From the NCBI RefSeq assembly GCF_024138715.1, contig NZ_CP092074.1, forward strand, positions 2,790,001 through 2,854,000: a stretch of DNA of 64,000 nt. Reading direction: 5' to 3'. The translations under genes were made by a program, and so were the position numbers. Position 1 is the first letter of the stretch; each line of letters opens with the position of its first letter. Origin of the DNA: Emticicia sp. 21SJ11W-3 (lineage in GTDB: Bacteria > Bacteroidota > Bacteroidia > Cytophagales > Spirosomataceae). Under the pieces are notes generated by a model that made no database searches, was not told where the DNA came from, and saw only the letters and a program-made list of their open reading frames with translations. Below are positions 38,225 through 56,955 of this stretch, piece after piece.

Positions 38225-41200
38225 TTAGAATGTTGCTGTTAGACCTACGTTAATAATTTTCGACTGAGGATAGTACTGTCCTGTTGAGTTATCAGTCTCT
38301 GGGTCATATACTTTCAGTTTGTCCCAAGTCAACATGTTTAGTCCGTTTACATAAACTCTAAAATTACTAAAGCCAACTTTTGAACCAATTGCTTCAGGAA
38401 TGGTATAACCAATCTCGAAGTTTTTCAGACGGATATAGTCTGTGCTTCTCAACCAATAAGTATTACCATTTGAATAATACTGGTCGCTACGGTTAGCAAT
38501 ACGTGGGTGTACGCTGCTAGGGTTGTCGATTGTCCAACGGTTTTCGTAGATATCTAACAAGAAGTTACCAATGTTACCAGACTCACCTGCACTTACGTAT
38601 TGTTTAGCGCCAGCGGCACCCTGGAACAACACGGTAAGGTCGAAGTTTTTGTACTGGGCTGTCAGGTTAGCACCACCCTGGAACAACGGAAGGTTGGTGT
38701 TATCTGTACGTACCTGGTCATCAGGTGTAATTTTACCGTCGCCGTTGTAATCTTTGTATTTCATATCACCAGGACGTAACTGGTTTACGATAGCCTTGTA
38801 ATCAATCTTGTTTTCGTTGATTTCAGCCTGATCTTTGAACACACCGTCATAGAGATAAGCCATGTAGGTATTCATAGGGCGGCCGGTTGTACGTTGCCAG
38901 TCTGGTGCACCCGGAGCTTCGTCCCAGAACACAACTTTGTTTTTAGCGTATCCACCGTTAACGCTGGCGCTGAATTTCACATCGCCCACTTGTCCGCGGT
39001 AACCTACGTTAAATTCCCAACCTTTGTTTGATACCTTACCGATGTTTTCAGCAGGCAATGTTAAACCGGTTGATTGCGGAACCGATGCATTTCTGAACCA
39101 AAGAATGCTGGTACGTTTGTTAGAGAACACATCAAATTCGAACGATAATTTACCGTTGAACAACTGACCTTCCAAACCTAAGTTTGAGTTATTGGCAACC
39201 TCCCAGGTAATGTTGTTGTTAGGGATACGAGTTTCGTACAAGGTTTTTGTTTCAGTGTTATTGATTATATAACTACGGAAACCATAAGTAGACAGGTACT
39301 GATAAGTAGCAGGTGTAGTTGTATTAGGCAGGTAAACGTTATCGTTACCCATTTGCCCCCACGATCCGCGTAGTTTCAGGTAATTAACCACAGGTAGTGC
39401 ATTTTTGATGAAGCTCTCTTCAGAAAGCACCCAACCCATCATTACACCCGGGAAGAAACCGTAACGGGTTGCTTTCGGGAAGATATCTGAACCATCATAA
39501 CGCCACAAGAACTCAGCAAGGTATTTTTCTTTATAGTTATACGCAACACGACCGAAGTAGTTTAGACGAGCACTGTTATAAGCGCCACCACCGTTGTTTT
39601 TCTCAAGGTCACCACCGGCAAAAATCTGGTCGATAGAAGTTGAGATGAAGTAACGACGGAAAGCATTGAAGTTATCACCCTGGATAGTCTCACGGTTAGT
39701 ACCAGCCAATACAGTAAGGCCATGCACACCAAATTTACGTTCGTAAGTACCAATGGCACCCAATAGAATGTTCAACTGGTTTTCGTTACCCAAAGTAAGA
39801 CGTGGCTCGGCAGGGCCGCGTTTGCTTGGAACCAATACGGGTGTTCCGTCCGGGTTTGTACCAGAACCTTTTTCATAAAGTGTCCAAGGTGTCTCCCAAC
39901 GTTTAGTGCTACGGATACGTTTGTCAATAGACGCTGTACCGGTAAATTTCAAACCTTCAATACCAGGGATTTTGATATCCAACTGTCCGTTGGTCTGGAA
40001 ATAGTCTTGTTTGTCGCGGTCATAACCTGTCTGGTTAGTTGTAATAACCACCGGGTTTTCACCGTTTTCGATGTCAGGACCTGGTAAGCCGTTTGGCCAG
40101 AAAGCAGGTTGATGTGGTTTACCACGCATCTGCATACGGAAAATAGCACCGGCAGATTTGGTAGGGAACTTACGAGCCTCTTCACGTGCCAATAAACCAA
40201 TTTGCAGGTTCATGTACTTGTTGATTTTGGCATCAAGGTTTACTCTGATGTCATATTGTTCATAACCTGTTGCAGAGTTTTTGTAGAAGGCATCCTGTTT
40301 CTGATAACCTAAAGTTGACAAATAACGGAAGTTTTCTGTACCACCTGTTACCTGAAGGCTATGACGAGACTGAGGAGACCAGTCTTTCAGAGTAGCTTTG
40401 TACCAGTCGGTGTTTGGATATAACCAAGGGTCTGAGCCATCGGTGTATTTCTGAATATCAGTTGGCGAGAACGGCGCTTTTCTGATGTCGCCGTTTGGTC
40501 TTGTATAAACACCATTGGTTTTATATGCCTGGTTGGCAGCAGCCCACTCGCTGGTTGGCAAGCCGTAGATGTCAAGATCGTTCAACATACCAACATACTG
40601 AGCAGCGTTAGCCAGTTTAGGCACTACGGTTGGTCTTGCAAAACCCTGGTTGAAAGAGTAAGAAAGCTCTGGTTTACCTGTTTTACCTCTTTTGGTGGTA
40701 ATCAGGATAACACCGTTAGCCGCACGAGAACCATAAATAGCGGCAGAGGCATCTTTAAGAACCGAGATGGTTTCGATATCGGCCGGATTCAAACGAGACA
40801 AACCACCGGCACGGTTAGGGATACCATCAATTACAATCAGGGCTTCGCTATTGTTAAGGGTATTGGCACCACGAATACGAATGGCTGAGTTATCATAACC
40901 TGGCTCTCCACTTCTGTTGACGGCAACAACACCGGGAAGACGACCAGCCAATGAGTTAGAAAGGTTAACAGCAGGTGATTTTACCAGCTCTGCGCCTTTT
41001 ACACTAACAACCGAACCTGTTACGGTTTCTTTTTTCTGCACACCGTAACCTACAACTACCACTTCGCCCAACGTTTTTACGTCTGACTTCATGGCGATAT
41101 CAATTACAGAGCGGTTACCTACAATTACTTCCTGTGGTTCAAAGCCTACAATGCTAAAAACCAATACCGCCTGGTTGTCTGGCACTACAAGGGTGTAGTT

Positions 41201-41728
41201 ACCGTCGCCGTCGGTGGTGGTACCTTTGGTTGTACCTTTAATTGTAACGCTTACGCCCGGCAAACCTTCGTTCTTATCGGCTTCGGTTACCTTTCCTTTT
41301 ACTGTTTGTTCTATCACCTCACCATCCTTCATCCGAAGCTCATCGATATGAGACATTTTTTGTAGTTGAGATTTCTTTCTAAGTAAAATCCGGTCACCGA
41401 TAACCTCATAAGAAATTTGCAATGGCGTAAACAAATCGTCTAGCACTTCAGAGAGCTTGTTGCTCATCATGATAGATACTTTCTGATTCAGCCGTATAGT
41501 ATTTGAACTATACACAAACTTCACATCAGCCTGTTTTTCTATCTGGCTAAGAATTTTCTTGACTTCCAGTGACTCTATCCTTAAAGATACGTTAGTGTTG
41601 AGGACTTCCTGGCCGTTTACATCGTAGGCGTAGGAGAGTCCGCTAAAAAGAGAGACCATCAAGAGTTGAATAAACGTAATTTTCATTGCTTTAAGCAAAA
41701 AATGTTTGCTACGTACGTCTTTTTTCAT
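38225..41728 (-). CDS. SusC/RagA-family TonB-dependent transporter with STN domain (PUL-1)
   Basis: A 1167-residue outer-membrane transporter. After the signal region comes an STN signalling domain (about 45-120: NVSLRIESLEVKKILSQIEK...DRILLRKK). A carboxypeptidase-regulatory-like domain (about 143-215) follows, then a TonB plug starting GYGVQKKETVTGSV and a 22-strand barrel ending VGLTATF. The STN domain should relay ligand occupancy to FecR, encoded just upstream, which controls the ECF sigma factor. The 198-base gap upstream holds an antisense element on the plus strand whose promoter overlaps codons 1-8. Confidence 0.95.
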   Translation of the reverse strand: MKKDVRSKHFLLKAMKITFIQLLMVSLFSGLSYAYDVNGQEVLNTNVSLRIESLEVKKILSQIEKQADVKFVYSSNTIRLNQKVSIMMSNKLSEVLDDLFTPLQISYEVIGDRILLRKKSQLQKMSHIDELRMKDGEVIEQTVKGKVTEADKNEGLPGVSVTIKGTTKGTTTDGDGNYTLVVPDNQAVLVFSIVGFEPQEVIVGNRSVIDIAMKSDVKTLGEVVVVGYGVQKKETVTGSVVSVKGAELVKSPAVNLSNSLAGRLPGVVAVNRSGEPGYDNSAIRIRGANTLNNSEALIVIDGIPNRAGGLSRLNPADIETISVLKDASAAIYGSRAANGVILITTKRGKTGKPELSYSFNQGFARPTVVPKLANAAQYVGMLNDLDIYGLPTSEWAAANQAYKTNGVYTRPNGDIRKAPFSPTDIQKYTDGSDPWLYPNTDWYKATLKDWSPQSRHSLQVTGGTENFRYLSTLGYQKQDAFYKNSATGYEQYDIRVNLDAKINKYMNLQIGLLAREEARKFPTKSAGAIFRMQMRGKPHQPAFWPNGLPGPDIENGENPVVITTNQTGYDRDKQDYFQTNGQLDIKIPGIEGLKFTGTASIDKRIRSTKRWETPWTLYEKGSGTNPDGTPVLVPSKRGPAEPRLTLGNENQLNILLGAIGTYERKFGVHGLTVLAGTNRETIQGDNFNAFRRYFISTSIDQIFAGGDLEKNNGGGAYNSARLNYFGRVAYNYKEKYLAEFLWRYDGSDIFPKATRYGFFPGVMMGWVLSEESFIKNALPVVNYLKLRGSWGQMGNDNVYLPNTTTPATYQYLSTYGFRSYIINNTETKTLYETRIPNNNITWEVANNSNLGLEGQLFNGKLSFEFDVFSNKRTSILWFRNASVPQSTGLTLPAENIGKVSNKGWEFNVGYRGQVGDVKFSASVNGGYAKNKVVFWDEAPGAPDWQRTTGRPMNTYMAYLYDGVFKDQAEINENKIDYKAIVNQLRPGDMKYKDYNGDGKITPDDQVRTDNTNLPLFQGGANLTAQYKNFDLTVLFQGAAGAKQYVSAGESGNIGNFLLDIYENRWTIDNPSSVHPRIANRSDQYYSNGNTYWLRSTDYIRLKNFEIGYTIPEAIGSKVGFSNFRVYVNGLNMLTWDKLKVYDPETDNSTGQYYPQSKIINVGLTATF

Positions 41729-41735
41729 ACATTTA
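41705..41735 (+). promoter_or_regulatory. Promoter-like element for antisense RNA 1
   Basis: On the plus strand, TTTG at 41705-41708, a 19-base spacer and TACATTTA at 41728-41735 (seven of eight matches to TAnnTTTG). It overlaps the susC start codon on the other strand. Confidence 0.5.
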
Positions 41736-41741
41736 GGTTGT

Positions 41742-41847
41742 TTTTATACTTAAGATAGGTAAAAACTCTGCTTCCTTTCAACCGAATTGCCGTTCGGCAG
41801 GAAGCGCTCCGGAGCCGATAATGTTACAGCATTGTCGGCTTTTTTTG
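41742..41847 (+). ncRNA. Predicted cis-antisense sRNA of PUL-1
   Basis: Predicted transcript of about 105 nt running opposite to susC, into the susC leader. It contains a stem-loop with outer stem GCTTCCT/AGGAAGC and inner stem CCGAA/TTCGG (41770-41805). The terminator follows: AGCCGATAATG/CATTGTCGGCT (41813-41840, one G-U pair) and a run of T. PUL-2 has the same arrangement at the same place. Position and orientation match the PUL-associated antisense RNAs (DonS type) known from Bacteroides. The transcription start is estimated from the promoter. Confidence 0.55.
41813..41847 (+). terminator. Plus-strand terminator between fecR and susC (PUL-1)
   Basis: An 11-bp stem with a 6-base loop and seven T on the plus strand, although both flanking genes run on the minus strand. 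It therefore ends an antisense transcript. Confidence 0.85.
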
Positions 41848-41926: not shown

Positions 41927-42949
41927 TTACCTGCAACCTTCGCCGCTCACAAAGTAGCTGGTTCCGCGCTGCTCAAACCGGGCATTAATGGTTTTGCATA
42001 TTAATTCAAGTTGTGTGGCTAGCGGCAGGTCGTTTAAATCGGCCGTAATAACGCAATGTTCCAACTCCTGATTTTCCAGAATAATTTCAATACCATACAC
42101 GTTTTTCAGTTTTTGTAACACCTGCGGTAACACAGTATCTTCAAAAGTAAAATCATGTTGGGTTATCTCCGGCACCAGCATAATTGGTTTCTCAACTATG
42201 CCTGTCATGATTTTTCTGGATGCCTTGTCGAAAGTTACCTTCTGATTTGGCGTTAATATCACTCCATTCTTTTTTCTGCCGGCGTTTTCTGAGACTTCAT
42301 AAACCGAAACGCGGCCGGAGGTAACCGAAACCTCGATGTCGCTCACGTTGTCGTATGACTTAATGTTGAAGCTCGTACCTAGTACCTCGGTTACCAGGTC
42401 TCCGGTATGTACCATAAATGGCGCATTCGGGTTTCTTTTTACGTTAAAAAAGGCCTCGCCTTTCAGATACACATGGCGGAAACGGGTTCCAAAATGCTTG
42501 GGGTAACTAATACTGCTGTTGCTTTTCAGTTTTACAACGGTGCCGTCTTCCAGTTTAATGTCGCTGTCGGTGGCTGAGGTATTCCTGATTTCAATGTCTG
42601 TTGATTCTTCGGTTTTGGCAGCCCGGGCTACCGGCTTCAACTCTTTTTTGTTGAAATACAGCACACCGTTTACCAGACCAATTACCAACATGGCGGCTAC
42701 CCCCCATTTTAACAATTTGAGCATCCGCCCTTTTGTCGAATGGTATTCTTCTTCTACCACACCAATGGTGTTGTTGTAGATGCGGTTCCAGAGGCGCTTT
42801 CTGATAGCCTCTTTTTCTTCAGGGTTAAGTGTTACCCTGGTGTTTTTCAACATATTTTCCTGCCATTCCCAAATCAGCCTTTCTTCTTCAGAATTACACT
42901 CGCCGGCCAGGTATCTTTCTAGTAGTTTGTCGAATTCATGCTGGTTCAT
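41927..42949 (-). CDS. FecR-family anti-sigma factor (PUL-1)
   Basis: A 340-residue inner-membrane anti-sigma factor. The cytoplasmic N-terminal part (about 1-85: FDKLLERYLAGECNSEEERLIWEWQE) would bind the sigma factor; one transmembrane helix lies at about 88-107 (LLKWGVAAMLVIGLVNGVLYF). The periplasmic FecR domain (about 125-230: DIKLEDGTVVKLKSNSSISYPKHFG...GTSFNIKSY) and a C-terminal STN-like DUF4974 domain (about 265-338) would contact the SusC STN domain. It follows the sigma gene by 39 bases. Confidence 0.93.
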   Translation of the reverse strand: MNQHEFDKLLERYLAGECNSEEERLIWEWQENMLKNTRVTLNPEEKEAIRKRLWNRIYNNTIGVVEEEYHSTKGRMLKLLKWGVAAMLVIGLVNGVLYFNKKELKPVARAAKTEESTDIEIRNTSATDSDIKLEDGTVVKLKSNSSISYPKHFGTRFRHVYLKGEAFFNVKRNPNAPFMVHTGDLVTEVLGTSFNIKSYDNVSDIEVSVTSGRVSVYEVSENAGRKKNGVILTPNQKVTFDKASRKIMTGIVEKPIMLVPEITQHDFTFEDTVLPQVLQKLKNVYGIEIILENQELEHCVITADLNDLPLATQLELICKTINARFEQRGTSYFVSGEGCR

Positions 42950-42988: not shown

Positions 42989-43546
42989 TTAATTATCTGT
43001 ATGATAAGCCTTCAACTGTTGTTTTAAAACCTTGAGGGTTTTGGTAAGGTGGTATTCAACGGCTTTTTCAGACAGGTTCATCTGATTGGCTATGTCTTTT
43101 ACCGACCTGTTTTCGAAACGGCTCATCTTGAAAATCTCTGAGCTTCGTTCGGGCAACGACTTCATGGCTTCTTCTACTGCCTTGGCCAGGTCAGTAAAGT
43201 TGACGATTTCGTCGGTTGAGTAAGATTGTTGTATCTGATTAAATATCAGGTACTCCTGATATTTTCTCTGTGTAATCTGCGACTTAATATAATTAGTTGA
43301 CAAATGCTTGATAGACACAACCAGATAAGAGCTGAGGTGGCGGATAACACTTACCTGCCGGCGGTTCCAGAGGCTCTCAAACAAATCATGCACCAGCTCT
43401 TCTGCTTCTTCTCTGGTTCCGGTTTCGTTAAAGGCAACGCCATACAACTTCAACCAATAACGGTTATAAATTTCTTCAAAAGCGGTCTGGTTATCGCTTT
43501 TCAAGAAAGAAACCAACTCTTCATCACTAAGTTTCTGGTACTGCAT
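42989..43546 (-). CDS. ECF RNA polymerase sigma factor (PUL-1)
   Basis: A 185-residue sigma-70-family ECF factor. Region 2 is DNQTAFEEIYNRYWLKLYGVAFNETGTREEAEELVHDLFESLWNRR (about 19-64). Region 4 is EAMKSLPERSSEIFKMSRFENRSVKDIANQMNLSEKAVEYHLTKTLKVLK (about 126-176) with a clear helix-turn-helix. It should transcribe its PUL when FecR is inactivated by SusC. It has a good vegetative-type promoter (TTG-N21-TACGTTTG) and is divergent from an MFS transporter gene across a 550-base gap. Confidence 0.94.
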   Translation of the reverse strand: MQYQKLSDEELVSFLKSDNQTAFEEIYNRYWLKLYGVAFNETGTREEAEELVHDLFESLWNRRQVSVIRHLSSYLVVSIKHLSTNYIKSQITQRKYQEYLIFNQIQQSYSTDEIVNFTDLAKAVEEAMKSLPERSSEIFKMSRFENRSVKDIANQMNLSEKAVEYHLTKTLKVLKQQLKAYHTDN

Positions 43547-45409: not shown

Positions 45410-47341
45410 TCATTTCACCACTGTAAATATATGCTTCCCTTTATCAGATAATGTCTTACTGGTCAGGATAATCCGCCGAACGGGGCGGCTATCCCATTTG
45501 GTTTTGAAGCTGTTATATTCCATGCCTTCGGTTGAGGGAAGGTCGGTCGATACGGCCCAGTTTTTAGCTGCATAGTTAACCGATAGCTGCTTACCTTTAG
45601 GTGTAGTAAGCACAATTTTACCCGGTGTTGCGATATCAATATCGCAGATGGTCATAAATACCTGTTCTATTGAGGCAGGTTTTTCTGTCAGCACATAATC
45701 ATCGGTAATCTCTACCACATTTTTGGCCTTGTTTAGTTTTACGATACGGTTCCAGTTTTTTATACCTGCTGTTTTGTCGTAAGCGGGGGCGATATCCATG
45801 CTGAGCGACGCCTCCTTATCGGTAACAGAACTTTTTACGTTGATGCCTTCAAATGCTTTTCCGGCCAACTGGCCTTTGCCGTTAACAATGGGCAGGTTAT
45901 GGTATTGCGACTGCGTGAACCATAATTCGTAGCGTTTTGATGAAAAAGTGCGAGCCGTGTAATTACCCCGACCGGCATCAATGATAACGGGTTCACCGTC
46001 TGAATAAATCAGGAAGTCGCCTACATCGTTATGATTATGGCTTTCGGCATTGTGCCCGGCGTGGGTAGCCAGATAAAGACCATTGGCCGACCGCGTGGTG
46101 AGCACCTGAATATCTGCAAACCAGGCATCGCCGCCCGGCTGATAGGTAACAGGCGTTGCCGGTATTTTGGCAACTGTTAATAAATTGGCAATGCGGCGCA
46201 TCCGATGGAAACTATTGTTGGATGACACCGTGGATGGGAAACGCTGATTTGCCCACAAACCAAACTGCACAAGTGTGTTATCGTTAATTGCCCTGCCAAA
46301 ACGGTAGAGCATCAACCCGTCCGGCCGAAGTTTAGGGTCGGCATCGGCAAAGTTCACAAAGTAATCGTGTGCAATGTGTGTTTTGTAAACATAAGACGCC
46401 ATGTTTTTTATGAGCGGCTCGTTATAAATATCAATTTTACCGTTAGAGGCGCTTTGAAGGGTTTCAAGGGCATCAAAAACACAGGCACCCGCCGCAAACC
46501 AGTAGCTGGGGCCTTCGTCGCAGCCGCCGTCATCGCCCAGGCTGTTCAGGTAGGCATCCATCAGTACCGAGTAAGTATGGGCGTTTGTGGCGCGTTTGGT
46601 TTCGTCAGTTTCAAGCAGTAAATCAGCCACCAGAAGGTTAGAGACTATCCAGGGGTTCCAGTTGTTAACGGGGTTGGTTCTGCTCAGGTATCCGTAGCGG
46701 CTAACTTCTCTTATCGGCTCAAAAATCTTTTTGCTGGTTTCAGAATAGATTCTTTTACGCAACAAAGGAGAGATTTTGTCCAGCTTGTCGCCCACAAAAT
46801 AATCGGTAAGCGCCAGTACAGCGGCGGTTTCGGCTCCGAATAAATCAACTGTCGGGTCTTCAGCGTCTGGCAGGCCGCTTTTGGCCTTCTGAACACCCAA
46901 ATGTGCAGGCACACCCCAGTAGGTTTCTTCACAAATGGCCCATACGTAATTCATGATGGCTTCGGTGAATCGCCCTTTATTTTCTACCGACTCTGCCAGT
47001 ACCAGGTCTATCAGGTTAACCCGGCGTGCATAAGAGATTTTAGAATGCTTTTCCCTGTCGCCGGAGCGGACGTATTCCATCAGCAAACTGGCTGACAGTT
47101 GCGGCATTTCTTTTTTTTCGGCGGCTTCGCCTGCTTTTATCAGCCCTTGTATCAATGAATCAGGCAAAGCGGCCTTCCATTCATCCGGTGTTCTGGGGTA
47201 GGGTCTCCATTGGTTTTTAGGTACAAGCGCCTGTTTATAAGCATTGGCCGTGTACTTATTAGCCAGAATATTACGCTGGGTAACCTGTGCATTTGCTGTA
47301 AACAGGCATATTAACAGCGCAATGGTGAGTATATTTTTCAT
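45410..47341 (-). CDS. Heparinase II/III-family protein, putative polysaccharide lyase (a)
   Basis: A 643-residue exported protein with a signal peptide (ends ANAQ, about 19). An alpha/alpha-toroid domain (about 90-400) is followed by the heparinase II/III beta-sandwich with THAGHNAESHNHNDVGDFLIYSDGEPVIIDAGRGNYT (about 430-465), which contains the conserved histidines and the metal-binding pattern. It should cleave uronic-acid-containing chains by beta-elimination; whether the substrate is a glycosaminoglycan, alginate or another polymer is not decided. It is the last gene of PUL-2, 19 bases after its homologue. Confidence 0.85.
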   Translation of the reverse strand: MKNILTIALLICLFTANAQVTQRNILANKYTANAYKQALVPKNQWRPYPRTPDEWKAALPDSLIQGLIKAGEAAEKKEMPQLSASLLMEYVRSGDREKHSKISYARRVNLIDLVLAESVENKGRFTEAIMNYVWAICEETYWGVPAHLGVQKAKSGLPDAEDPTVDLFGAETAAVLALTDYFVGDKLDKISPLLRKRIYSETSKKIFEPIREVSRYGYLSRTNPVNNWNPWIVSNLLVADLLLETDETKRATNAHTYSVLMDAYLNSLGDDGGCDEGPSYWFAAGACVFDALETLQSASNGKIDIYNEPLIKNMASYVYKTHIAHDYFVNFADADPKLRPDGLMLYRFGRAINDNTLVQFGLWANQRFPSTVSSNNSFHRMRRIANLLTVAKIPATPVTYQPGGDAWFADIQVLTTRSANGLYLATHAGHNAESHNHNDVGDFLIYSDGEPVIIDAGRGNYTARTFSSKRYELWFTQSQYHNLPIVNGKGQLAGKAFEGINVKSSVTDKEASLSMDIAPAYDKTAGIKNWNRIVKLNKAKNVVEITDDYVLTEKPASIEQVFMTICDIDIATPGKIVLTTPKGKQLSVNYAAKNWAVSTDLPSTEGMEYNSFKTKWDSRPVRRIILTSKTLSDKGKHIFTVVK

Positions 47342-47360
47342 AGAGGTTAAGGTTGAATAG

Positions 47361-49235
47361 CTATTGTTTGTTCCAGTCTTTCAGCGGGCGTACAGATTTA
47401 TCTGCTTTGGCGCCTTCGGGTATCAGTAAAACGGTTAGGGCTTTGGTGGTATTGGCTGGCAGGGCCACTTCAAAACCTACCAGCGTAGTACCGGGGTTAG
47501 GCGCGTCGTAATCATGAGGCGGCACGGTAGACCATGTTTTAATACTGGCACCGGCGGGCTCAAGAACTTTCAGTTGCATTTTTTTACCTTTTTGTATCAG
47601 GGTAGCGGTGCCGTCTTTTTCAAGAGTTACTTCGGCAGGGGTAAGCATGGCCCAGCGAACCGTAGTTGCCTGTGTGGCAGATGTAATTTCATCTCTTACG
47701 GCTACGTATTGCCCTTTAATAATGGCTACACCTCTTAAAGCCTGCTGAACCTTGTTTTTGTAAACAACAGAGATGTCGCTGTTGGCGCTTAAAAACCCCG
47801 GCTTATCTGTCCAGTGGTCAATAGCGGCGTAACCTTCAACCCGCTGAAACTCCCCATCAAAACTTAAGGTACTATGGGCCAGGTTATTGTATCTGTACAC
47901 CTGCCAACGCTCAGCGTCTTGCTCTCTACCCCAGATTTTTACACCTTTTGATTCAAGGGACTCATACTCCTGCATTCCGAAGTCCATCGACCATCGTTCG
48001 CCGTTGGCATCCATCACAAATGAGCCAACATCCATGTGTCCATGATTAACCGAAGGCGAACCGGCTTTAAAACCTACATAAATGGCATTGGGGTTGGTCC
48101 ATGACGTGCGCATCAAGGCAACAGGGTTTTTGCCCTGCCCTACCCATATCAGTTGTTTGGGGGCAGTGGCATTGTCAAGGCTCATGTTTTTGCCCCATAT
48201 CATGGCTGCCGGTAAAAGCCTGTCGCGGCCTAAACTACGGGTATCGCCCTGCAGATAGTTTTTTTCGTTAAACAAAAGGCTGTTGTCTTTGTTGCGGTCG
48301 GCAAACCAGAACATAGCCGGGCTAAGGTCGGCACCATTACCGGCGTCAGAATAATTGAAGTTTTTGCCCGACGAACCCACCATCTGCTGAAAATAACCTG
48401 CCGTTTTCAAAAATCCAGGGGCAGCAGATAAGTCGAAGTCAAACTTGAACACCTGTTGAACAGCGCTCAGAAACATAACATTGAAACTGGTGCCATAGCC
48501 CCAGTAGCTGTAACCTTCGGGGTAGGCTCCTTCGGGTTTGTAGTCTTGCATGGGCAGCCTGATGGAGCCAATGGAACGGTCAATTATTTGCGTGGCTAAC
48601 GCGGTATTGTCTTCAAAAATGGCCAGTGCGCCGTAGGTAATGCCTGCGTTGCATACCTGGTTCCAGTTATGGGAGGCTTTCAGCCAACTGTTATACCGAC
48701 TGTCTAAAGACGGTTCGATGCCCTTTTTAAGAATGGCATCTTTGATGATATCTTTTGATGAAGCCTGTAAATCATAATACAGCCAGTCGTAGCCGATGGC
48801 TACGCCCATGGTCATTTCGGCCACGTCTAAAAAGTGGCTGGGGTTCCAGTCGCTGAACTGCGATACTTTCAGCAATTCCTGCTCGGCTCTTGCGAGGTAT
48901 TTTTTATCGCTGGTGGTTCGGTAGGCATAAGACAGGTAAAATACCCGGCGAATACACTCACGCGATGTGGCCAGCAACCTTCGGCCTATTTGAATGCGTT
49001 CAAGGGTGGGTTCGGCAAGCAGGCGGTTGCTTTCATCTATTATCACCTGGTGTATTCTGGCCCAGTTTTTATCGGCAGCTATGTTGTCAAGTATTTTTTT
49101 CTCTTCACCTTTTGCCCATAAAATACGCGGATGCGCAGGCATGGAAACGTCTGGTTTCAGATAGGTTAACTGCTGGCCTGATACCCCGAAAATGCAAAAC
49201 AGTGAAATAAGAAAAATGAAAGATGTTTTTATCAT
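47361..49235 (-). CDS. Heparinase II/III-family protein, putative polysaccharide lyase (b)
   Basis: A 624-residue exported protein (signal peptide ends VSGQ, about 20). The helical toroid contains ASHNWNQVCNAGITYGALA (about 205-223) and YPEGYSYWGYG (about 256-266), with a likely tyrosine/histidine active site. The C-terminal heparinase domain carries VNHGHMDVGSFVMDANGERWSMDFG (about 400-424). It differs from protein (a), so the two probably act in sequence, for instance an endo- and an exo-lyase. The start at 49235 gives a normal signal peptide; the frame runs 44 codons farther without support. Confidence 0.86.
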   Translation of the reverse strand: MIKTSFIFLISLFCIFGVSGQQLTYLKPDVSMPAHPRILWAKGEEKKILDNIAADKNWARIHQVIIDESNRLLAEPTLERIQIGRRLLATSRECIRRVFYLSYAYRTTSDKKYLARAEQELLKVSQFSDWNPSHFLDVAEMTMGVAIGYDWLYYDLQASSKDIIKDAILKKGIEPSLDSRYNSWLKASHNWNQVCNAGITYGALAIFEDNTALATQIIDRSIGSIRLPMQDYKPEGAYPEGYSYWGYGTSFNVMFLSAVQQVFKFDFDLSAAPGFLKTAGYFQQMVGSSGKNFNYSDAGNGADLSPAMFWFADRNKDNSLLFNEKNYLQGDTRSLGRDRLLPAAMIWGKNMSLDNATAPKQLIWVGQGKNPVALMRTSWTNPNAIYVGFKAGSPSVNHGHMDVGSFVMDANGERWSMDFGMQEYESLESKGVKIWGREQDAERWQVYRYNNLAHSTLSFDGEFQRVEGYAAIDHWTDKPGFLSANSDISVVYKNKVQQALRGVAIIKGQYVAVRDEITSATQATTVRWAMLTPAEVTLEKDGTATLIQKGKKMQLKVLEPAGASIKTWSTVPPHDYDAPNPGTTLVGFEVALPANTTKALTVLLIPEGAKADKSVRPLKDWNKQ

Positions 49236-49602
49236 AGGTATTTCCGTTGAGGTTGAATGGTAAATTTTTTTAGGTGTGAATTGTCTCTTATAGAACCCTA
49301 TTGAATTGTAGTGCGTATGGTTTATAAATGTCAGAATATATGTTTTATTTTTGGTATTATCAATCAAAACGGGTTAGCAGGATGGCATTGGTATTATACC
49401 CGTTTGGATAAATTTATCGCATTTGTAGAGACGCATTGCATGCGTCTTCAGAGGCCAATCCTTGTATTAAAACCATTTCAGCTATTTGGTCTGGCAAAAT
49501 CAATTTTCGAAGAACCCTATTCTACGATTAGCCGCAAGCATTGCGGCTCTACAGGGATAATGAATAATCCCGAAATTAATCGGGATTATTCGTTGCTTTA
49601 CA
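49236..49602. other. susD-to-lyase spacer rich in palindromes
   Basis: A 367-base gap inside PUL-2 with several palindromes: AGACGCA/TGCGTCT (49429-49447), GCCGCAA/TTGCGGC (49531-49547) and AATAATCCCG/CGGGATTATT (49563-49590). The first two resemble short repeats common in Bacteroidota spacers. There is no gene. Confidence 0.6.
49563..49590 (-). terminator. Hairpin after susD of PUL-2
   Basis: A perfect 10-bp stem with an 8-base loop, 13 bases after the susD stop. It lacks a long T-run, so it is best read as an mRNA-end or attenuation structure, parallel to 36264-36305 in PUL-1. Confidence 0.55.
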
Positions 49603-51219
49603 TCACCACTTAGGGTTTTGTTTCAGATTTGAATTAAGCGATATTTCGTTGATAGGCAATGGCCACAGGTAATCTTTGGTGGGGTCAAACTTACGGAAAC
49701 TCGCTGCCTGCACCAATATAAAGTTGTCTGCCGTTACGTTTACCGTAGTGGTAGTGCCGAACTCAGTCTTGAAGAAATAATTACCCAAAATAGGTTTAGG
49801 CAATTCGGTTTCGGCGGTTTTCCAACGGATAATATCCCAGTAACGCAGGCTTTCCTGTGCCAGCTCAACGCGGCGTTCGCGGCGTATTTCGTCGCGCATA
49901 TTCAGGCCATTGGCCGCTACAAAAGCATTGCTGAGGCGGGCTACCTTACCGCGGTCGCGCAAGCGGTTTACCGACAGGTCAAGGTCTGCATCGCTTATCT
50001 GGCCTTCCAGTTCATATTTGGCTTCGGCATAAGTAACCAAAACCTCTGCATAGCGTAAAACCACACGGTCTATTAGCGATGCCTGCGTTACCCAGTCGTC
50101 AATATTTGAATACTTACGGAAGGTGAAACCCGTTTTGTTAAATACCAGCGGTGCAATATCAAACACAGGCTTGGTACCCATGTAGGCATCGCCCTTTTTC
50201 ATAACCGTAGCGCTCAGGCGTTCGTCGCGATTGGTAAATACATCGGTAGATACTGCAGGCTTAGTATAAAGCGGAGACTTATCGATGGGCAGGCCGTCTT
50301 TCATCAGGTAGGCATCAACCAGGCTTTTGGTTGGGCTCAGGTTTCCGTTTTCCAGGGTACCTCTGTAATAAGCATGCGTGCTAACGCGGTCAGTAACGGC
50401 AACCCCATATTGGCGAACAATGATGTTTTCACGGTTCTGGCGGCCTTCTCCTTCATACTGAAAAAGGTTAAAATAGTTAGCAAACAAATCATGCTGCTTG
50501 CTATCCATTACGGCTTTGGCGGCTGCCACTGCCAATGTAAGATGCTGGTTGGCATCGCCATAATTATGGAATTTCGAGCGGGTGCCCTCAAATAATGCAA
50601 CTCTGGCTTTAAACGCATAAGCGGCCGTGTTTGATATACGCCCGTAGTCGGCGGTACCAAGGGTAGTTGGTGTGGGTAGTTTAGCCGCTGCAAAGTCAAG
50701 GTCGTCATAAATCTGTTTGTAAATATCTGCTCTCGGGCTGGCCGCTGCGGTAAGTTCAGGCGAAGCGTCGGTTAGGGTTTTCAGAATCAGCGGTACATCG
50801 CCATACTTCTGAACCAGAGAGAAATAAGCCCATGCTCTGAAAAAACGTGCCTCGGCCGAGTAACGGTCTATGGCTGCCTGGCCGGCTGCGGTAGCTTTAG
50901 GGGCTTTTTCAAGTATATTGTTAGCGGCCCTGATAAGCTGGTAGGGTGTGCTATAGTTGCCGTCGGTTGCCGGAGCGAGACGAGAACCGTCGCTGATGCT
51001 GTTGGAAGCAAGGCCCACGGCGTCGTCAGACCAAACGTCTTCTGCATTGAAAGCAGGCAGAAATGTGTACAGGTAATTGGCTGCGGCTTTCAGGTCAGAC
51101 TCTGACCGCCAGAAGGTTTCATCGCTGATGCTGGTTTCCGGAAGGCGGTTAACGTCGCAGGCGCTTAAGCCTAGCGAAACCGCCACAACAAATGATATAT
51201 GTTTGATGAATGCTTTCAT
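49603..51219 (-). CDS. SusD/RagB-family nutrient-binding lipoprotein (PUL-2)
   Basis: A 538-residue lipoprotein (lipobox LSAC, cysteine 21) that pairs with SusC of PUL-2. The N-terminal block LPETSISDETFWRSESDLKAAANYLYTFLPAF is SusD-like, and helices AEARFFRAWAYFSLVQKYGDVPLILK form the TPR core. The C-terminal RagB/SusD block LIDRVVLRYAEVLVTYAEAKYELEG...RRERRVELAQESLRYWDIIRW ends with the usual YLWPLPINEISLNSNLKQNPKW. It follows susC by about 140 bases, longer than in PUL-1, and the spacer carries short tandem repeats. Confidence 0.95.
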   Translation of the reverse strand: MKAFIKHISFVVAVSLGLSACDVNRLPETSISDETFWRSESDLKAAANYLYTFLPAFNAEDVWSDDAVGLASNSISDGSRLAPATDGNYSTPYQLIRAANNILEKAPKATAAGQAAIDRYSAEARFFRAWAYFSLVQKYGDVPLILKTLTDASPELTAAASPRADIYKQIYDDLDFAAAKLPTPTTLGTADYGRISNTAAYAFKARVALFEGTRSKFHNYGDANQHLTLAVAAAKAVMDSKQHDLFANYFNLFQYEGEGRQNRENIIVRQYGVAVTDRVSTHAYYRGTLENGNLSPTKSLVDAYLMKDGLPIDKSPLYTKPAVSTDVFTNRDERLSATVMKKGDAYMGTKPVFDIAPLVFNKTGFTFRKYSNIDDWVTQASLIDRVVLRYAEVLVTYAEAKYELEGQISDADLDLSVNRLRDRGKVARLSNAFVAANGLNMRDEIRRERRVELAQESLRYWDIIRWKTAETELPKPILGNYFFKTEFGTTTTVNVTADNFILVQAASFRKFDPTKDYLWPLPINEISLNSNLKQNPKW

Positions 51220-51360: not shown

Positions 51361-54300
51361 TTAAAACGAAAGGTTCAGACCTACTGATGCGGTGGCAAAG
51401 AACGGATAATCGTTATCTACGTTATCACGGTTTTCAGGGTCAAACAATCCCTTAAATTTACCCAATGCCGAAACCGTGAGGAGGTCCTGACCTGAGAAGA
51501 ACAATCTTGCTCTTGAAATATTAATCTTTGAGGTCCATTTTACAGGCAAGGTATAACCCACCTGAATGTTTTTCAGACGTGCATAGCTGGCATTGAGCAC
51601 CCATTTGTCAGACGGCAAAAAGTTGTGCGTGGCACCCACATAAGGTCTTGGGTAAAGCGCATTCTGGTTTTCAGGTGTCCAGTAGTCGCGGTGCACGGCA
51701 AGTGCCTGTTTCCAGGTTACCAGCAATGGGGCTATGTTTTCGGCATTCGGGCGGTAGCTGCGTTTACCTACACCCTGCACAAAGGCGCTGAAATCAATGT
51801 TTTTCCATTGAAAGCCCAACGTAACCCCAAAAAGGTAACGTGGTTGCGTAGTACCCAGCAGCACAAGGTCGCCGTGGTTGTCAATATTACCGTTACCGAT
51901 GGTCAGCCTGCCGTCGCCATTCTGGTCTATGTATTTTACGTCTCCGGGGCCGGTGCGGTTATCCTGAAACGCCCAGGTTTTTACCTGATCAACATCAGTA
52001 AAATATCCGGCTGTCTGGTAACCCCAGATAGTATTGAGCGGATACCCCTCTATGATGCTGTTGGTACCTGCACTGATGACCCTGCGACCCGAGAAGTTCA
52101 ATAGTTTATTCTGGTTGTCGGATAAATTGGCGGCTACGTTATAAGAAAAGTTTGAACCGATGGTGCCACGGTAGCGGGCTTCCAGCTCCCAGCCCCACGA
52201 TTTCAGCTCACCGTTGTTTTTACGGGGCGTACCGATACCTATTACGGCCGGTAATTGCTGAGGCGTAAGCATATTACGGTTGTATTTTACGTAATAGTCG
52301 CCGCTGATTTGTAGTTTATTCTGAAAGAAACCCAGGTCGGCACCAATGTTAGAGGTCTCGATGGTTTCCCATGATAACTGTGCCGATGGAATAGAACTCT
52401 GATATATGTAAGAGGTGCGCGAGTCGCCCAGAACAAGCGAAGCGCTGCGGCTAAGCTGATTGAGGTAGTCGTAGTAGCCGAGTGTATTACCCAAAGCGCC
52501 ACCCAGGCGGCCCCATGAAGCACGGAGTTTGAGTTCGGAAACGAATTTGAGCTGATTGGCGAACCATTCTTCGCGGTGGATGTTCCATCCTGCCGAGGCC
52601 GAAGGGAATACCTTTACACGGAAGCCCGGCGCCAGTCTTGAGCTTTCGTCTGAACGAAGTGTACCTTCAATCAGGTATTTGTCGGCATAGTTATAATTGA
52701 CACGGCCAAATACCGACTGGTAAGCATACGCATAAATATTCTGGCTGTTTACTTTGGTTTTGTCGTCGCCCAGGTTCAAAGTCGGTAAGTCATTGCTCAC
52801 CAGGTTAGAAGCTGCCGAATAATTAGAAGAGAACCGGAATGATTCCCACTGATACCCAGCAAACAAGCCCAGGTTGTGCTTACCGCCAAATTTTTTATCG
52901 TAGTTTGCCAACAACTGTATATTGTTGTTGGTGGTTAGCTCATTTGTTACATTGAATGAGTTAACCTGATTGAGATAACTTAATATTCTTGATTTACCCC
53001 ATAATGGCACAGTGCGGTTAAATACTTCTCTGTCGCCACGGCGGTACTGGGTACCTACCACTGCTCTCAGGTTCAGTCCCTTAATGATTTCTGATGCTTT
53101 AAGGGTAAACACGCCATCAAAATAGTTACGGCGGTATTCGTTATAGCCTCCTGCTTCCATAGATGCATAAGCAGTGGCGGCCGAACCGGCTCCATTATAA
53201 CGGCCCTCTGGCGTAAAAAACGGCGTGCGGGTACGCAGCCGGTAAATCTGGTACAGCAGCCCCTGCCCGTTTATACCGGCAGACGAGCTCTCGGTTTTAT
53301 CGTTTGTATAAGAAAGACGAGAATCTAAAGATAAAATACGGGTTAGCTGTGCGCCCAGATTCATGCGCAGGTTGTAGCGGTCGTAGCTGTCTGGCCCTAC
53401 TTTAAAAACACCGTCTTTGCCATAATAACCACCTGAAATCAGGAAGTTCAGTTTGTCTGTGCCGCCTCTCATAGACAGGTTGTGCGTACGCATAGACGAG
53501 TATTTTCTAAGAATCTGGTCGGTAAGGGGTTTCTGATTATAGTACAGATAGGTGCTGGTATCAACCGGGTTTACCACGTACGGAATACCATCTTTTATAC
53601 GCTGAAGGTCATCGGCGTTGTATTCAGGGCCACTGCCCGAGTTGGCACGGGCAAGATTGGCATATTCAGCTTCTTCAAGCAAAGACATTCTGCCGGGTAC
53701 GTTAATGGCCCAGTCGGTTCCTTGCTGAGCCAGGTAATCGAAAGAAATTTTCCCCGATTTACCCTTTTTGGTAGTTACCAATATTACACCACCCGCAGCC
53801 TGTGCGCCATAGATAGCAGCCGCAGCGGCGTCTTTCAGCACGCTGATGCTCTCAACGTCGTTGGGGTTCATGGTTTGCAGGGTATTGCTAGGCACGGCTA
53901 CACCGTCTAGTACTACCAGAGGGCTTACGCTACCATTGGCCGTGGTAGCACCACGTACCTGAATGCCGATGTCTTCGCTACCGGGCTGGCCACTGGTGCG
54001 GGTAATGATAAGCCCGGGGCTCATACCCTGCATGGCTGTGGCCAGGTTACTGGCCGGGCGGTTTTCAATAGCGGCGGCGTCAATGCTTGATACGGCGCCT
54101 GTCAGGTTTGCTTTTTTCTGGGTACCGTAGCCTACTACCACTACTTCGTCGAGCGATTTCATGTCTGACCCCAGCACGATATTAATAGCCGTGCGGTTGC
54201 CAACGGTTACTTCCTGTTTTTCGTAGCCCAGAAAACTAAACACCAGCACCGAGCGCTCGTTAGGTACATTAATGCTGAAATTACCCTCGGCATCGGTAGT

Positions 54301-54825
54301 TACGCCACGGGTGGTGCCTTTAACGGTTACGTTTACGCCCGGCAGGCCGCCACCTCCGTCTTTATCGGTTACTTTTCCTTTTAAGGGCTGGTCGGCCACG
54401 GCTGCTTCGTTGGTGCTTTCTTCCATTTTAGCAGCCTCAATATTTTCAAGAATGGTTTGTTTTTCTTCCCAGTTCAGAATAATCTGCCCGCCTATAATGC
54501 GGTAATTAACCTGCATAGGTTTTAATAATGTTTCCAGTACGTCTGATAGTTTTCGACCAGATACCGCAAAATTTACCTTGCGGTTGGCATGGATTAATTT
54601 TGAGCTATAGACAAATTTCACGTCGGTCTGCTCTTCAATCGACTCCAGCACCATACGCAAGCTTTGGTTTTCGGCATTCAGAGACACCGACTTATTGAGG
54701 AACTCCTGTGCTCTGGAGTCATAAGCGTATGTAACCGAAACGAAAACCATTGCCAATACAAGCTGAACAGCAGATATTTTCATAGCAAGTAGCAAGAGTT
54801 TACTTGTTTGTAATCTTTTTTTCAT
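51361..54825 (-). CDS. SusC/RagA-family TonB-dependent transporter with STN domain (PUL-2)
   Basis: A 1154-residue outer-membrane transporter with the same plan as the PUL-1 protein. An STN domain (about 50-120: VSLNAENQSLRMVLESIEEQTDVKFVYSSK) is followed by a carboxypeptidase-regulatory-like domain (LKGKVTDKDGGGGLPGVNVTVKGTTRG), a plug (GYGTQKKANLTGAVSSID) and a barrel ending FATASVGLNLSF. It imports an oligosaccharide, presumably from the lyases of this locus, and signals to FecR. I chose ATG at 54825 (MKKRLQTS), which shares its flanking sequence with the PUL-1 susC start; the frame extends 19 codons upstream. Confidence 0.95.
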   Translation of the reverse strand: MKKRLQTSKLLLLAMKISAVQLVLAMVFVSVTYAYDSRAQEFLNKSVSLNAENQSLRMVLESIEEQTDVKFVYSSKLIHANRKVNFAVSGRKLSDVLETLLKPMQVNYRIIGGQIILNWEEKQTILENIEAAKMEESTNEAAVADQPLKGKVTDKDGGGGLPGVNVTVKGTTRGVTTDAEGNFSINVPNERSVLVFSFLGYEKQEVTVGNRTAINIVLGSDMKSLDEVVVVGYGTQKKANLTGAVSSIDAAAIENRPASNLATAMQGMSPGLIITRTSGQPGSEDIGIQVRGATTANGSVSPLVVLDGVAVPSNTLQTMNPNDVESISVLKDAAAAAIYGAQAAGGVILVTTKKGKSGKISFDYLAQQGTDWAINVPGRMSLLEEAEYANLARANSGSGPEYNADDLQRIKDGIPYVVNPVDTSTYLYYNQKPLTDQILRKYSSMRTHNLSMRGGTDKLNFLISGGYYGKDGVFKVGPDSYDRYNLRMNLGAQLTRILSLDSRLSYTNDKTESSSAGINGQGLLYQIYRLRTRTPFFTPEGRYNGAGSAATAYASMEAGGYNEYRRNYFDGVFTLKASEIIKGLNLRAVVGTQYRRGDREVFNRTVPLWGKSRILSYLNQVNSFNVTNELTTNNNIQLLANYDKKFGGKHNLGLFAGYQWESFRFSSNYSAASNLVSNDLPTLNLGDDKTKVNSQNIYAYAYQSVFGRVNYNYADKYLIEGTLRSDESSRLAPGFRVKVFPSASAGWNIHREEWFANQLKFVSELKLRASWGRLGGALGNTLGYYDYLNQLSRSASLVLGDSRTSYIYQSSIPSAQLSWETIETSNIGADLGFFQNKLQISGDYYVKYNRNMLTPQQLPAVIGIGTPRKNNGELKSWGWELEARYRGTIGSNFSYNVAANLSDNQNKLLNFSGRRVISAGTNSIIEGYPLNTIWGYQTAGYFTDVDQVKTWAFQDNRTGPGDVKYIDQNGDGRLTIGNGNIDNHGDLVLLGTTQPRYLFGVTLGFQWKNIDFSAFVQGVGKRSYRPNAENIAPLLVTWKQALAVHRDYWTPENQNALYPRPYVGATHNFLPSDKWVLNASYARLKNIQVGYTLPVKWTSKINISRARLFFSGQDLLTVSALGKFKGLFDPENRDNVDNDYPFFATASVGLNLSF

Positions 54826-54832
54826 ACATTTG
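54804..54832 (+). promoter_or_regulatory. Promoter-like element for antisense RNA 2
   Basis: Plus-strand TTG at 54804-54806, an 18-base spacer and TACATTTG at 54825-54832, a perfect match to TAnnTTTG. It straddles the susC start codon on the other strand, as in PUL-1. Confidence 0.55.
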
Positions 54833-54838
54833 AACAAT

Positions 54839-54945
54839 TTTGTTAGAGGTAAGAATTTGGCAAAAGGAACCCTGGTTTTCACGCACAGCGAAAACTATCC
54901 AGGGCTTTAGGGCTGACAATGCTGGTACCATTGTCAGCTTTTTTT
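54839..54945 (+). ncRNA. Predicted cis-antisense sRNA of PUL-2
   Basis: Predicted transcript of about 107 nt opposite to susC. The first stem-loop is CCCTGG/CCAGGG with an inner GTTTTC/GAAAAC (54870-54904). The terminator is a perfect 10-bp stem GCTGACAATG/CATTGTCAGC with a 7-base loop and seven T. Size, order of structures, place and orientation repeat those of PUL-1, and the terminator arms are similar (CATTGTCrGC). It should pair with the 5' leader of the susC mRNA. The transcription start is estimated. Confidence 0.58.
54912..54945 (+). terminator. Plus-strand terminator between fecR and susC (PUL-2)
   Basis: A perfect 10-bp GC-containing stem and seven T on the plus strand while fecR and susC are on the minus strand. 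Confidence 0.88.
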
Positions 54946-55041
54946 GTGGTCGGGAGGTTAAAATTTAATCATAATTAGGTACGTATAGTTTGAGTTAAAT
55001 AGATTGTAATATATTAGGTTGAATAGATAGCCCGGTTAGTT

Positions 55042-55149: not shown

Positions 55150-56169
55150 TTACTCACAACCTTTCCCGCTGATCAGAATCGTGGTTCCTTTCACTTCATA
55201 TTTGCCATTAATGGTTGCACAAATGATATCCAGCTTTGTATATAGCGGCTGGGCCGTTATATCTGCTGTAATCGGGCAATCATTCAGTTTTTCGTTTTCT
55301 AATACAATTTCAATTCCGTACACTTTTTTCAGCTTGTCAAGTACCTGGCTGATGGGTGTGTCGTCAAATTCAAATTTTTCAGGCTTGTTGTTGATGGGCT
55401 TTATCTGAGGTAAAGGCTTGGCAACCAGACCGGTTATAAAATGCTTTTCAACAGCAAAAAATGTAACCTTGTGGTTGGGTGTAAGTACTACACCCCTGTT
55501 CTGATTGTCTGCTCTTTCTTTTTCGTACACCGAAACCTTGCCCGAAATCACTTCTACTTCGGTTTTTTGCTTGGCCTCTACGGTGCGTACATAGAAACTT
55601 GTACCCAAAACTTTGGTAACAAGTTTATCGGTAATTACATAAAATGGTTTGTCGGGATTTTTACTTACCTCAAACAGAGCTTCTCCCCTGAGGTTCACTT
55701 CCCGTTTAGTCGCAGCAAATTGTTTTGGATACTGTAGCTGGCTGTGTGGGCTTAGCGTTACGGTGCTTCCATCTTCCAGCTTAATTTTTACGGGCTTGGA
55801 AGAGGTGTTGTCCATTAATTGCATTTCATGGACAGAACTTTGTAAAGTTGATTTAGTAGCGGGATCGGAATGTGTGCTAACGTACCACCACGCGCCTGCA
55901 CCCAATAAAATGGTAACAGAGGCGGCTATACTGAGGCGATAATTACGCCAGAAACTGATTGACGGCCGGGCTTCTGTTTCAAAAAGACCAGCTTCTATTT
56001 TTTGCCATAATTTATATTCAAGTGCCTGCCACTCCTGCCCGGTGTAATTCTGTCTGGGCTCTTCGTCAATGAGTTCATACCACTGCTCAACGAGTTGTGA
56101 TTCTGATTCACTGCATTTCCCATCTAAGTACTTCTGGAGGAGCTGACTAAACGCTTTACGGCTTTTCAT
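55150..56169 (-). CDS. FecR-family anti-sigma factor (PUL-2)
   Basis: A 339-residue anti-sigma factor with the same layout as its PUL-1 counterpart. The sigma-binding N-terminal part is FSQLLQKYLDGKCSESESQLVEQWYELID; a transmembrane helix lies near 76-92 (LSIAASVTILLGAGAWW). The FecR domain has KIKLEDGSTVTLSPHSQLQYPKQF and GTSFYVRTVEAKQKTEVEVISGKVSVYE. The C-terminal DUF4974/STN-like domain ends with GTTILISGKGCE, close to the PUL-1 end GTSYFVSGEGCR. ATG at 56169 is preferred over the longer frame to 56229. Confidence 0.93.
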   Translation of the reverse strand: MKSRKAFSQLLQKYLDGKCSESESQLVEQWYELIDEEPRQNYTGQEWQALEYKLWQKIEAGLFETEARPSISFWRNYRLSIAASVTILLGAGAWWYVSTHSDPATKSTLQSSVHEMQLMDNTSSKPVKIKLEDGSTVTLSPHSQLQYPKQFAATKREVNLRGEALFEVSKNPDKPFYVITDKLVTKVLGTSFYVRTVEAKQKTEVEVISGKVSVYEKERADNQNRGVVLTPNHKVTFFAVEKHFITGLVAKPLPQIKPINNKPEKFEFDDTPISQVLDKLKKVYGIEIVLENEKLNDCPITADITAQPLYTKLDIICATINGKYEVKGTTILISGKGCE

Positions 56170-56379
56170 CTGAGCGTAATAGATTCTTTGTTTAATTACT
56201 ATGTCGTATAAGTGCCCGATTAACCGCAAATAGTTTTGTAATTTCTATGAATAATACAACAAAAAAGGGGTTTTTATAAAAAGTTCTTTGATAAATTATA
56301 TAAAATTTATTATAAAACGGTGGAGTAAAATTCGGAAAAATGGCAATTGAAGAGGCAAATGAAAATGAAGGCAGGCATT

Positions 56380-56955
56380 TTATTTCAGAAAAAACAGCAG
56401 GCACCAGGTAAGAAACTCTTTCAGGTGTTCGCGCATGAATCGGAGCGACTGGGAAATGTGGTATTCAACAGTACGCTCAGGGATATTCAGCATTTCAACA
56501 ATTTCGCGGGTACTTTTGCCTTCCAGGCGGTTCAGGCGGAAAATATGCCGGGTTTTCTCGGGCATTTGTTCCATTGCCTGTTGGATAGATTCCGACAGGT
56601 CATGATACGCAATGGTTTCTTCAAGGCTGTTTATTTCTTCGTTTCTTTCGGTGGCGGCATACGCGGCAAACTTTTCTTCCTGCAGTTGTTTTCTGATATG
56701 GCTGATAATCTGGTACTTAAGGGCAGTAAAAAGATATGGCTCAAGGGTTTGAATCTGCACGGTGGCGCGTTTCTCCCACAGGTTAATGAAGATGTCCTGC
56801 ACCAGCTCTTCCACAATTTCTCTGGCATACACTTTTCTTTGGGCTTTCTGAAATAACTTACGCCAGTAACGACGATAAATCTCTTCAAAAGCTTCCTTAT
56901 CACCCAAAGTCAACAATTTTACCAGTATGTCGTCACCAATGCTTGCGTACTCCAC
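56380..56955 (-). CDS. ECF RNA polymerase sigma factor (PUL-2)
   Basis: A 191-residue ECF sigma factor. Region 2 (DKEAFEEIYRRYWRKLFQKAQRKVYAREIVEELVQDIFINLWEKR) and region 4 (QAMEQMPEKTRHIFRLNRLEGKSTREIVEMLNIPERTVEYHISQSLRFMREHL) are complete. The first codon is GTG, with no in-frame ATG nearby. A TATATTTG element lies about 22 bases upstream. It should direct transcription of PUL-2 under FecR control. Unusually, the chain ends in a hydrophobic tail WCLLFFLK. Confidence 0.93.
   Translation of the reverse strand: MEYASIGDDILVKLLTLGDKEAFEEIYRRYWRKLFQKAQRKVYAREIVEELVQDIFINLWEKRATVQIQTLEPYLFTALKYQIISHIRKQLQEEKFAAYAATERNEEINSLEETIAYHDLSESIQQAMEQMPEKTRHIFRLNRLEGKSTREIVEMLNIPERTVEYHISQSLRFMREHLKEFLTWCLLFFLK

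Follow-up and report, generated by a model that had tools for sequence, protein, structure and literature searches.

A covarying RNA family predicted antisense to the starts of FecR-type susC genes in Emticicia and its relatives

Layout of the element in PUL-2 and PUL-1

The window analyzed in this work is a 64,000-nucleotide stretch of the Emticicia sp. 21SJ11W-3 genome (NZ_CP092074.1, positions 2,790,001 to 2,854,000) and includes two loci, PUL-1 and PUL-2, that share the gene order ECF sigma factor, FecR, the element described here, SusC with an STN domain, and SusD. In PUL-2 the genes for the ECF sigma factor (56380-56955), the FecR anti-sigma factor (55150-56229), an STN-type SusC (51361-54825) and SusD (49603-51219) all lie on the minus strand. 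The true start of this susC, the target of the predicted RNA, is the ATG at 54825-54823 (minus strand), and the encoded protein begins MKKRLQTSK. Two heparinase II/III-type proteins are also encoded in PUL-2 (45410-49367), so that its substrate may be a uronic-acid polysaccharide. The corresponding PUL-1 genes are those for the ECF sigma factor (42989-43546), FecR (41927-42949, minus strand) and an STN-type SusC (38225-41728, minus strand).

On the plus strand, the putative -7 promoter box of an antisense RNA, TACATTTG (54825-54832), overlaps the PUL-2 susC start codon; its first T (54825) is the last base of CAT 54823-54825, the start codon in reverse. A TTG at 54804-54806, proposed as a weak -33 element, stands before it across an 18-base spacer, and this arrangement was read in the sequence just as the preliminary description had it. 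With +1 set 5 bases past the box, the predicted antisense RNA is about 109 nt long (54837-54945, plus strand, both ends predicted), and the match to the R1 covariance model described below spans 54835-54945 on the same strand. The RNA is predicted to fold into a 5' hairpin (stem I, 54838-54865) that is also supported by covariation and holds a conserved U-G pair, a variable middle hairpin (stem II, 54870-54904), and an intrinsic terminator with a covarying stem (54909-54945), whose perfectly matched arms GCTGACAATG and CATTGTCAGC (54912-54921 and 54929-54938) are followed by seven T (54939-54945). The earlier account of a two-hairpin design was correct about the hairpin at 54870-54904 and about the terminator with its T run, but miscounted the hairpins, having overlooked the one at the 5' end.

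The same layout recurs in PUL-1, where the box on the susC start (41728-41735, plus strand) reads TACATTTA; the two loci therefore do repeat one design, as had been claimed, but not with the identical box TACATTTG. The predicted PUL-1 RNA (41740-41846, plus strand), placed by folding and an R1 match, ends in a terminator at 41811-41846 with arms at 41814-41823 and 41830-41839 and then seven T. Between 38000 and 57800, 36 terminator-like sites were found on both strands (mean of shuffles, 23.5), among which the terminators of these two loci had the most pairs (14 and 13). The fold of the antisense strand was better than that of 200 of 200 shuffles at both loci (z -3.38 and -3.48 in two runs for PUL-2, -4.49 for PUL-1). 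At the 28 other SusC-type loci of the host genome, R1 gave no match better than E 1.4; these loci include one of the three fecR-susC loci of this genome, which is thus without the element. Beyond this third locus (L038), a fourth FecR gene (L037) is followed by a gene whose product, judged by eye, is STN-like and which is absent from the results of the SusC search.

Distribution and covariation of the element family

A search of 222 genomes of the host's family for relatives of the SusC N-terminus gave matches in 194, and 30 loci were read. In most of these, the end of an antisense terminator falls about 105-145 bases from the start, and the arms are related but changing. The R1 covariance model was built from 25 elements and begins 12 bases inside, so that neither the start codon nor the promoter box can drive its matches. 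R1 matched at least 158 of the 222 family genomes and at least 29 of the 36 genera, and, in a sample drawn evenly from the phylum, at least 6 of 392 genomes (three of the host's family and three of the same class); since strict filters were applied and no more than 15 (family search) or 8 (phylum search) candidates per genome were scored, these counts are lower bounds. At least 15 matches were present in a single genome.

Gene context was checked for 57 matches at E <= 0.001, 13 of which are training places of the model (7 of 22 in the genus, 6 of 35 in the family and phylum searches). All 57 were antisense at a susC start, and fecR adjoined in 56. Within the genus (11 genomes), 24 matches had E <= 3.3e-4, and the 22 examined were all antisense to susC at its start, with FecR upstream in 21; near the 8 examined genus matches at E >= 0.0023, neither a SusC nor a FecR gene was found. 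The genus matches at E <= 0.001 outside the context check were two at E <= 2.1e-5, one at 5.1e-4 and one at 8.7e-4. All 35 loci examined from the family and phylum searches, including three outside the family, had a SusC start with FecR; L119 and L120, which nearly duplicate training rows, were kept among these 35 and among the 46 rows of the strand test below. Each of the 12 phylum-sample matches at E <= 0.001 opposed a SusC start next to FecR. The checked matches at E <= 0.001 thus sit, with one exception, in fecR-susC gaps, antisense to susC, where the preliminary description had predicted them.

Prevalence was assessed on the first 40 rows of the SusC search that had no prior locus, taken regardless of the RNA and with the PUL-1 row skipped; three of them (L134, L135 and L137) coincide with L081, L080 and L123. 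All 40 loci had FecR, and 34 carried the element at E <= 4.4e-5. The six without a match at this threshold were L141, L146, L155, L159, L160 and L168, of which L155 and L160 had weak matches at the right place. In the sequence contexts read here, the element is confined almost entirely to the starts of FecR-type susC genes.

From an alignment of 27 elements the terminator helix emerged de novo, with compensatory changes in 11 of its 12 pairs. For the 25 training rows, the numbers of paired cells and of cells with both sides changed, and the covariation score, were reached by none of 500 shuffles; 13 pairs had changes on both sides, which 2 of 500 shuffles reached, the number of pair types was reached by 49 of 500, and slid controls were all lower. 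For 72 distinct rows, in an alignment fitted to the R1 model, 17 of 21 pairs covaried (200 cells); here 0 of 500 shuffles reached the first four measures, and the pair types were reached by 2 of 500. Two rows were omitted (L047, at a contig end, and L063, in which no element was seen); the near copies L060 and L066 are in neither A1 nor A2, and L048 and L068, which have long inserts, are in A1 but not in A2. The cells of stem II in the automatic alignment (38 Watson-Crick, 13 G-U and 14 C-A of 80) indicate that this stem is out of register there, and it was therefore excluded from R1 and from its covariation counts. The proposal that the two window copies belong to an RNA family is hence borne out by R1 and by the covariation of stem I and the terminator helix, although the two copies by themselves are insufficient as proof.

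G-U pairs are permitted in RNA, and on the opposite strand they read as C-A mismatches. Among the 46 non-training rows, the terminator had 52 G-U against 3 C-A combinations on the antisense strand (outer two pairs excluded) and stem I had 73 against 7; the training rows gave 34 against 0 for the terminator (outer pairs included) and 34 against 4 for stem I. The U-G pair of stem I, which on the susC strand would be A-C, was kept in 54 of 70 rows. The large excess of G-U over C-A identifies the strand antisense to susC as the structured RNA, even though both strands of the window copies fold well.

TAnnTTTG is the -7 consensus of the primary sigma factor of Bacteroidota. On the start codon of 71 distinct elements, TAnnTTTG was present in 42 and TAnnTTT[GA] in 60, where the start codon was taken as the open-frame CAT closest to the expected position, a choice that favors a constant distance of the box. 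A TTG 17-23 bases upstream was found in just 20 of the 60 box-bearing relatives, and a -33 element was rejected as a conserved feature. The promoter as first proposed is thus widely kept in its -7 half, whereas its upstream half is weak, as the TTG lies within susC codons and recurs in only that minority. Four orthologues were identical at 97 of 123 columns of the element and at 91 of 250 in the remaining gap. In susC codons 1-35 of these orthologues, synonymous variation was found in 2 of 30 amino-acid-invariant codons, against 36 of 59 in codons 36-117 (Fisher 3.5e-7); the constraint extends to codon 35, beyond the need of an overlapping promoter.

Named genome contigs were also scanned with an exact pattern of promoter plus stem I, which returned 91 stretches, 80 of which were examined. 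By similarity, 56 of the 80 lie at a SusC start, 55 of these with FecR and 52 with a terminator in a strict scan. The groups at SusC starts were Dyadobacter, Emticicia, Runella, Pseudarcicella, Arcicella and Arundinibacter, and further Mariniphaga (Marinilabiliales), a Prolixibacteraceae and a Cyclobacteriaceae genome, in which the terminator sequence differs; these nine assignments rest on the exact pattern, not on R1. One stretch had FecR only (L251). In Siphonobacter aquaeclarae (L194, 2997-3043), the pattern, with a terminator, marks the start of a protein judged by eye to be SusC-like and to lack the STN domain, and no FecR was found there by similarity. The remaining 22 of the 80 stretches, with neither SusC nor FecR and some in unrelated phyla, were set aside as chance matches of an AT-rich pattern.

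Of 29 FecR loci examined across the phylum, 23 leave 70 or more bases ahead of the next long frame. In a loose scan based on folding, 14 of these 23 had a terminator-like site on the antisense strand at 60-130 bases from the start (10 of 14 loci of families f4, f5 and f7, and 4 of 9 loci of f24). On the sense strand, where any position within the 200 bases counted, 6 of the 23 had such a site (6 of 14 and 0 of 9, respectively). The cut-offs were lax and the sites nested, and L273 was scored as a miss though a stricter scan lists a terminator there. The box TAnnTTT[GA] was at the start in 8 of 14 loci of f4, f5 and f7 and in 0 of 9 of f24. Breadth beyond the host's family is only a lead. In f24, an antisense hairpin with the loop GCGC[GC]AACTTCGAG is common to the fecR-susC gaps L280 and L282; the loop pattern (L280, L282, L294-L297) was found in 4 of 92 genomes.

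Function of the predicted RNA and alternative readings

On the susC strand outside the terminator, CTATG was present in 22 of 61 regions (200 shuffles: mean 4.0, maximum 9) and AACC/T followed by TATG in 17 of 61 (mean 1.2, maximum 6). This enriched motif is a candidate ECF promoter, with most regions being without it. In PUL-2 the weak candidate susC promoter is TTAAC...TTATG (54969-54999, minus strand), which has TATG rather than CTATG.

The -7 box on the start codon, the conserved 5' stem, the variable middle hairpin and the covarying terminator are all features of the sequence. They are well accounted for by a small cis-encoded antisense RNA of about 100-145 nt that opposes most FecR-controlled susC leaders of the family and represses by pairing, a reading that is considered probable as a whole. 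The housekeeping sigma factor would transcribe the RNA constitutively; if the candidate ECF promoter is the true one, the RNA would end just short of it and could pair with almost all of the susC leader. Without inducer, the RNA would bind the few susC mRNAs made, and the pairing would block susC translation or bring about mRNA decay, setting a threshold for ECF-sigma induction to exceed; polymerase collision may add to the repression. The direction of the effect, by which the RNA probably turns down its susC, is made uncertain by some PUL antisense RNAs of B. thetaiotaomicron, which correlate positively with susC according to the accessible part of that literature. In a bolder version, a built-in antisense RNA would be a standard third layer of sigma/FecR/SusC signaling across much of Bacteroidota, with its promoter in the susC start codon and first codons, its end abutting the ECF promoter, and a shared RNA-binding partner of the 5' stem and terminator that ranks PULs; this is regarded as unlikely.

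A different emphasis would have antisense transcription itself matter, through collision with the polymerase on susC, and the RNA be a by-product. The -7 box and susC face each other, which suits such an effect, but the RNA stems covary and the 5' stem is conserved, and collision needs neither, leaving this reading with a rather low probability. Only a little lower is that of an RNA acting in trans or bound by a protein, either through a shared partner or by cross-regulation of paralogues, which would be compatible with the cis-acting antisense RNA. The likeness of the terminator arms and the 5' stem between loci and genomes, together with the 15 or more matches in one genome, would fit it; the middle hairpin, however, varies by locus, and each copy has its complement in the leader of its own locus. 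The loop motif YUNR is a feature of some antisense RNAs; it was found in only 15 of 66 terminator loops, which also counts against this alternative, and it was rejected as a feature of the family.

The structure could instead belong to the leader of the susC mRNA, as an attenuator or riboswitch-like element. The susC strand folds about equally well (z -4.05 against -3.38 for the antisense strand in PUL-2; -3.09 in PUL-1), and the synonymous constraint reaches into susC. Against this stand the 52:3 and 73:7 ratios of G-U to C-A on the antisense strand, since each such G-U leaves the sense helix broken at that place, the T run, which in both window copies comes after the hairpin only when the antisense strand is read, and the direction of the -7 box, which points into the element; a leader structure is accordingly judged improbable. 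That the inverted repeats upstream of a regulated gene are a DNA palindrome bound by a regulator has close to no chance, as their arms change jointly and pass through G-U intermediates on one strand.

Two further readings were rejected. A coding role was discarded on finding an ATG frame of at least 15 codons in just 9 of 71 predicted RNAs, so that no reading frame is conserved, and a terminator of fecR was discarded on the window copies, whose hairpins have no T run on the side facing susC.

Comparison with known antisense RNAs

In the window, no match to Rfam 15 reached the gathering score; the highest-scoring of the weak hits between 54700 and 55100, Ocean-V with 17 bits against a cut-off of 75 and WsnRNA46 with 16.5 bits against 65.3, are at chance level. 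No account of such a structured RNA family in Cytophagales was among the results listed by the literature searches.

Cao et al. (2016) reportedly described DonS and PUL-associated cis-antisense RNAs of Bacteroides. Like these, the element lies antisense at a susC start, has a small predicted size and occurs several times per genome, as far as the accessible descriptions go. DonS-type RNAs are given there as 78-128 nt long; here the predicted ends give 109 nt in PUL-2 and 98-146 nt in relatives, of which 54 of 71 fall within 78-128 nt and the rest extend up to 146 nt. The available text of four papers (PMC7366714, PMC10994844, PMC11697453, PMC9723704) covers these RNAs; in B. fragilis, DonS is described there as repressing its PUL, by a mechanism stated to be unknown (PMC11697453). 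With DonS and other susC-antisense RNAs described in Bacteroides, the kind, on these partial accounts, is already known.

Antisense transcription in non-gut Bacteroidota is shared with Flavobacterium psychrophilum, but the 287 regions there are antisense to coding genes, mostly arising from imperfect termination and non-canonical initiation, and the accessible part of that report names no susC family (PMC9723704). HMP2_1032, a computed human-microbiome candidate, resembles the element in being 106 bp long, restricted to Bacteroidetes, mostly near TonB and with a predicted intrinsic terminator; in the accessible text it is described, differently, as palindromic on both strands, and the TonB concerned as periplasmic (PMC8040213).

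The presence of the element in at least 158 of 222 genomes and at least 29 of 36 genera gives evolutionary evidence for selection of such RNAs as RNAs. The family shows which parts of the RNA matter, ties such RNAs to sigma/FecR signaling, and supplies numerous natural variants on which tests can be made; submission to Rfam would be possible. PUL antisense RNAs are described from gut Bacteroides, and here environmental relatives carry a structured family. By the Rfam search at gathering score and the literature listings, the element is a new, structurally defined family of the DonS-type PUL antisense RNA kind, distinguished from DonS, as far as the accessible descriptions of it go, by a structure defined through covariation, by its tie to FecR-type susC genes and by its occurrence in Cytophagales.
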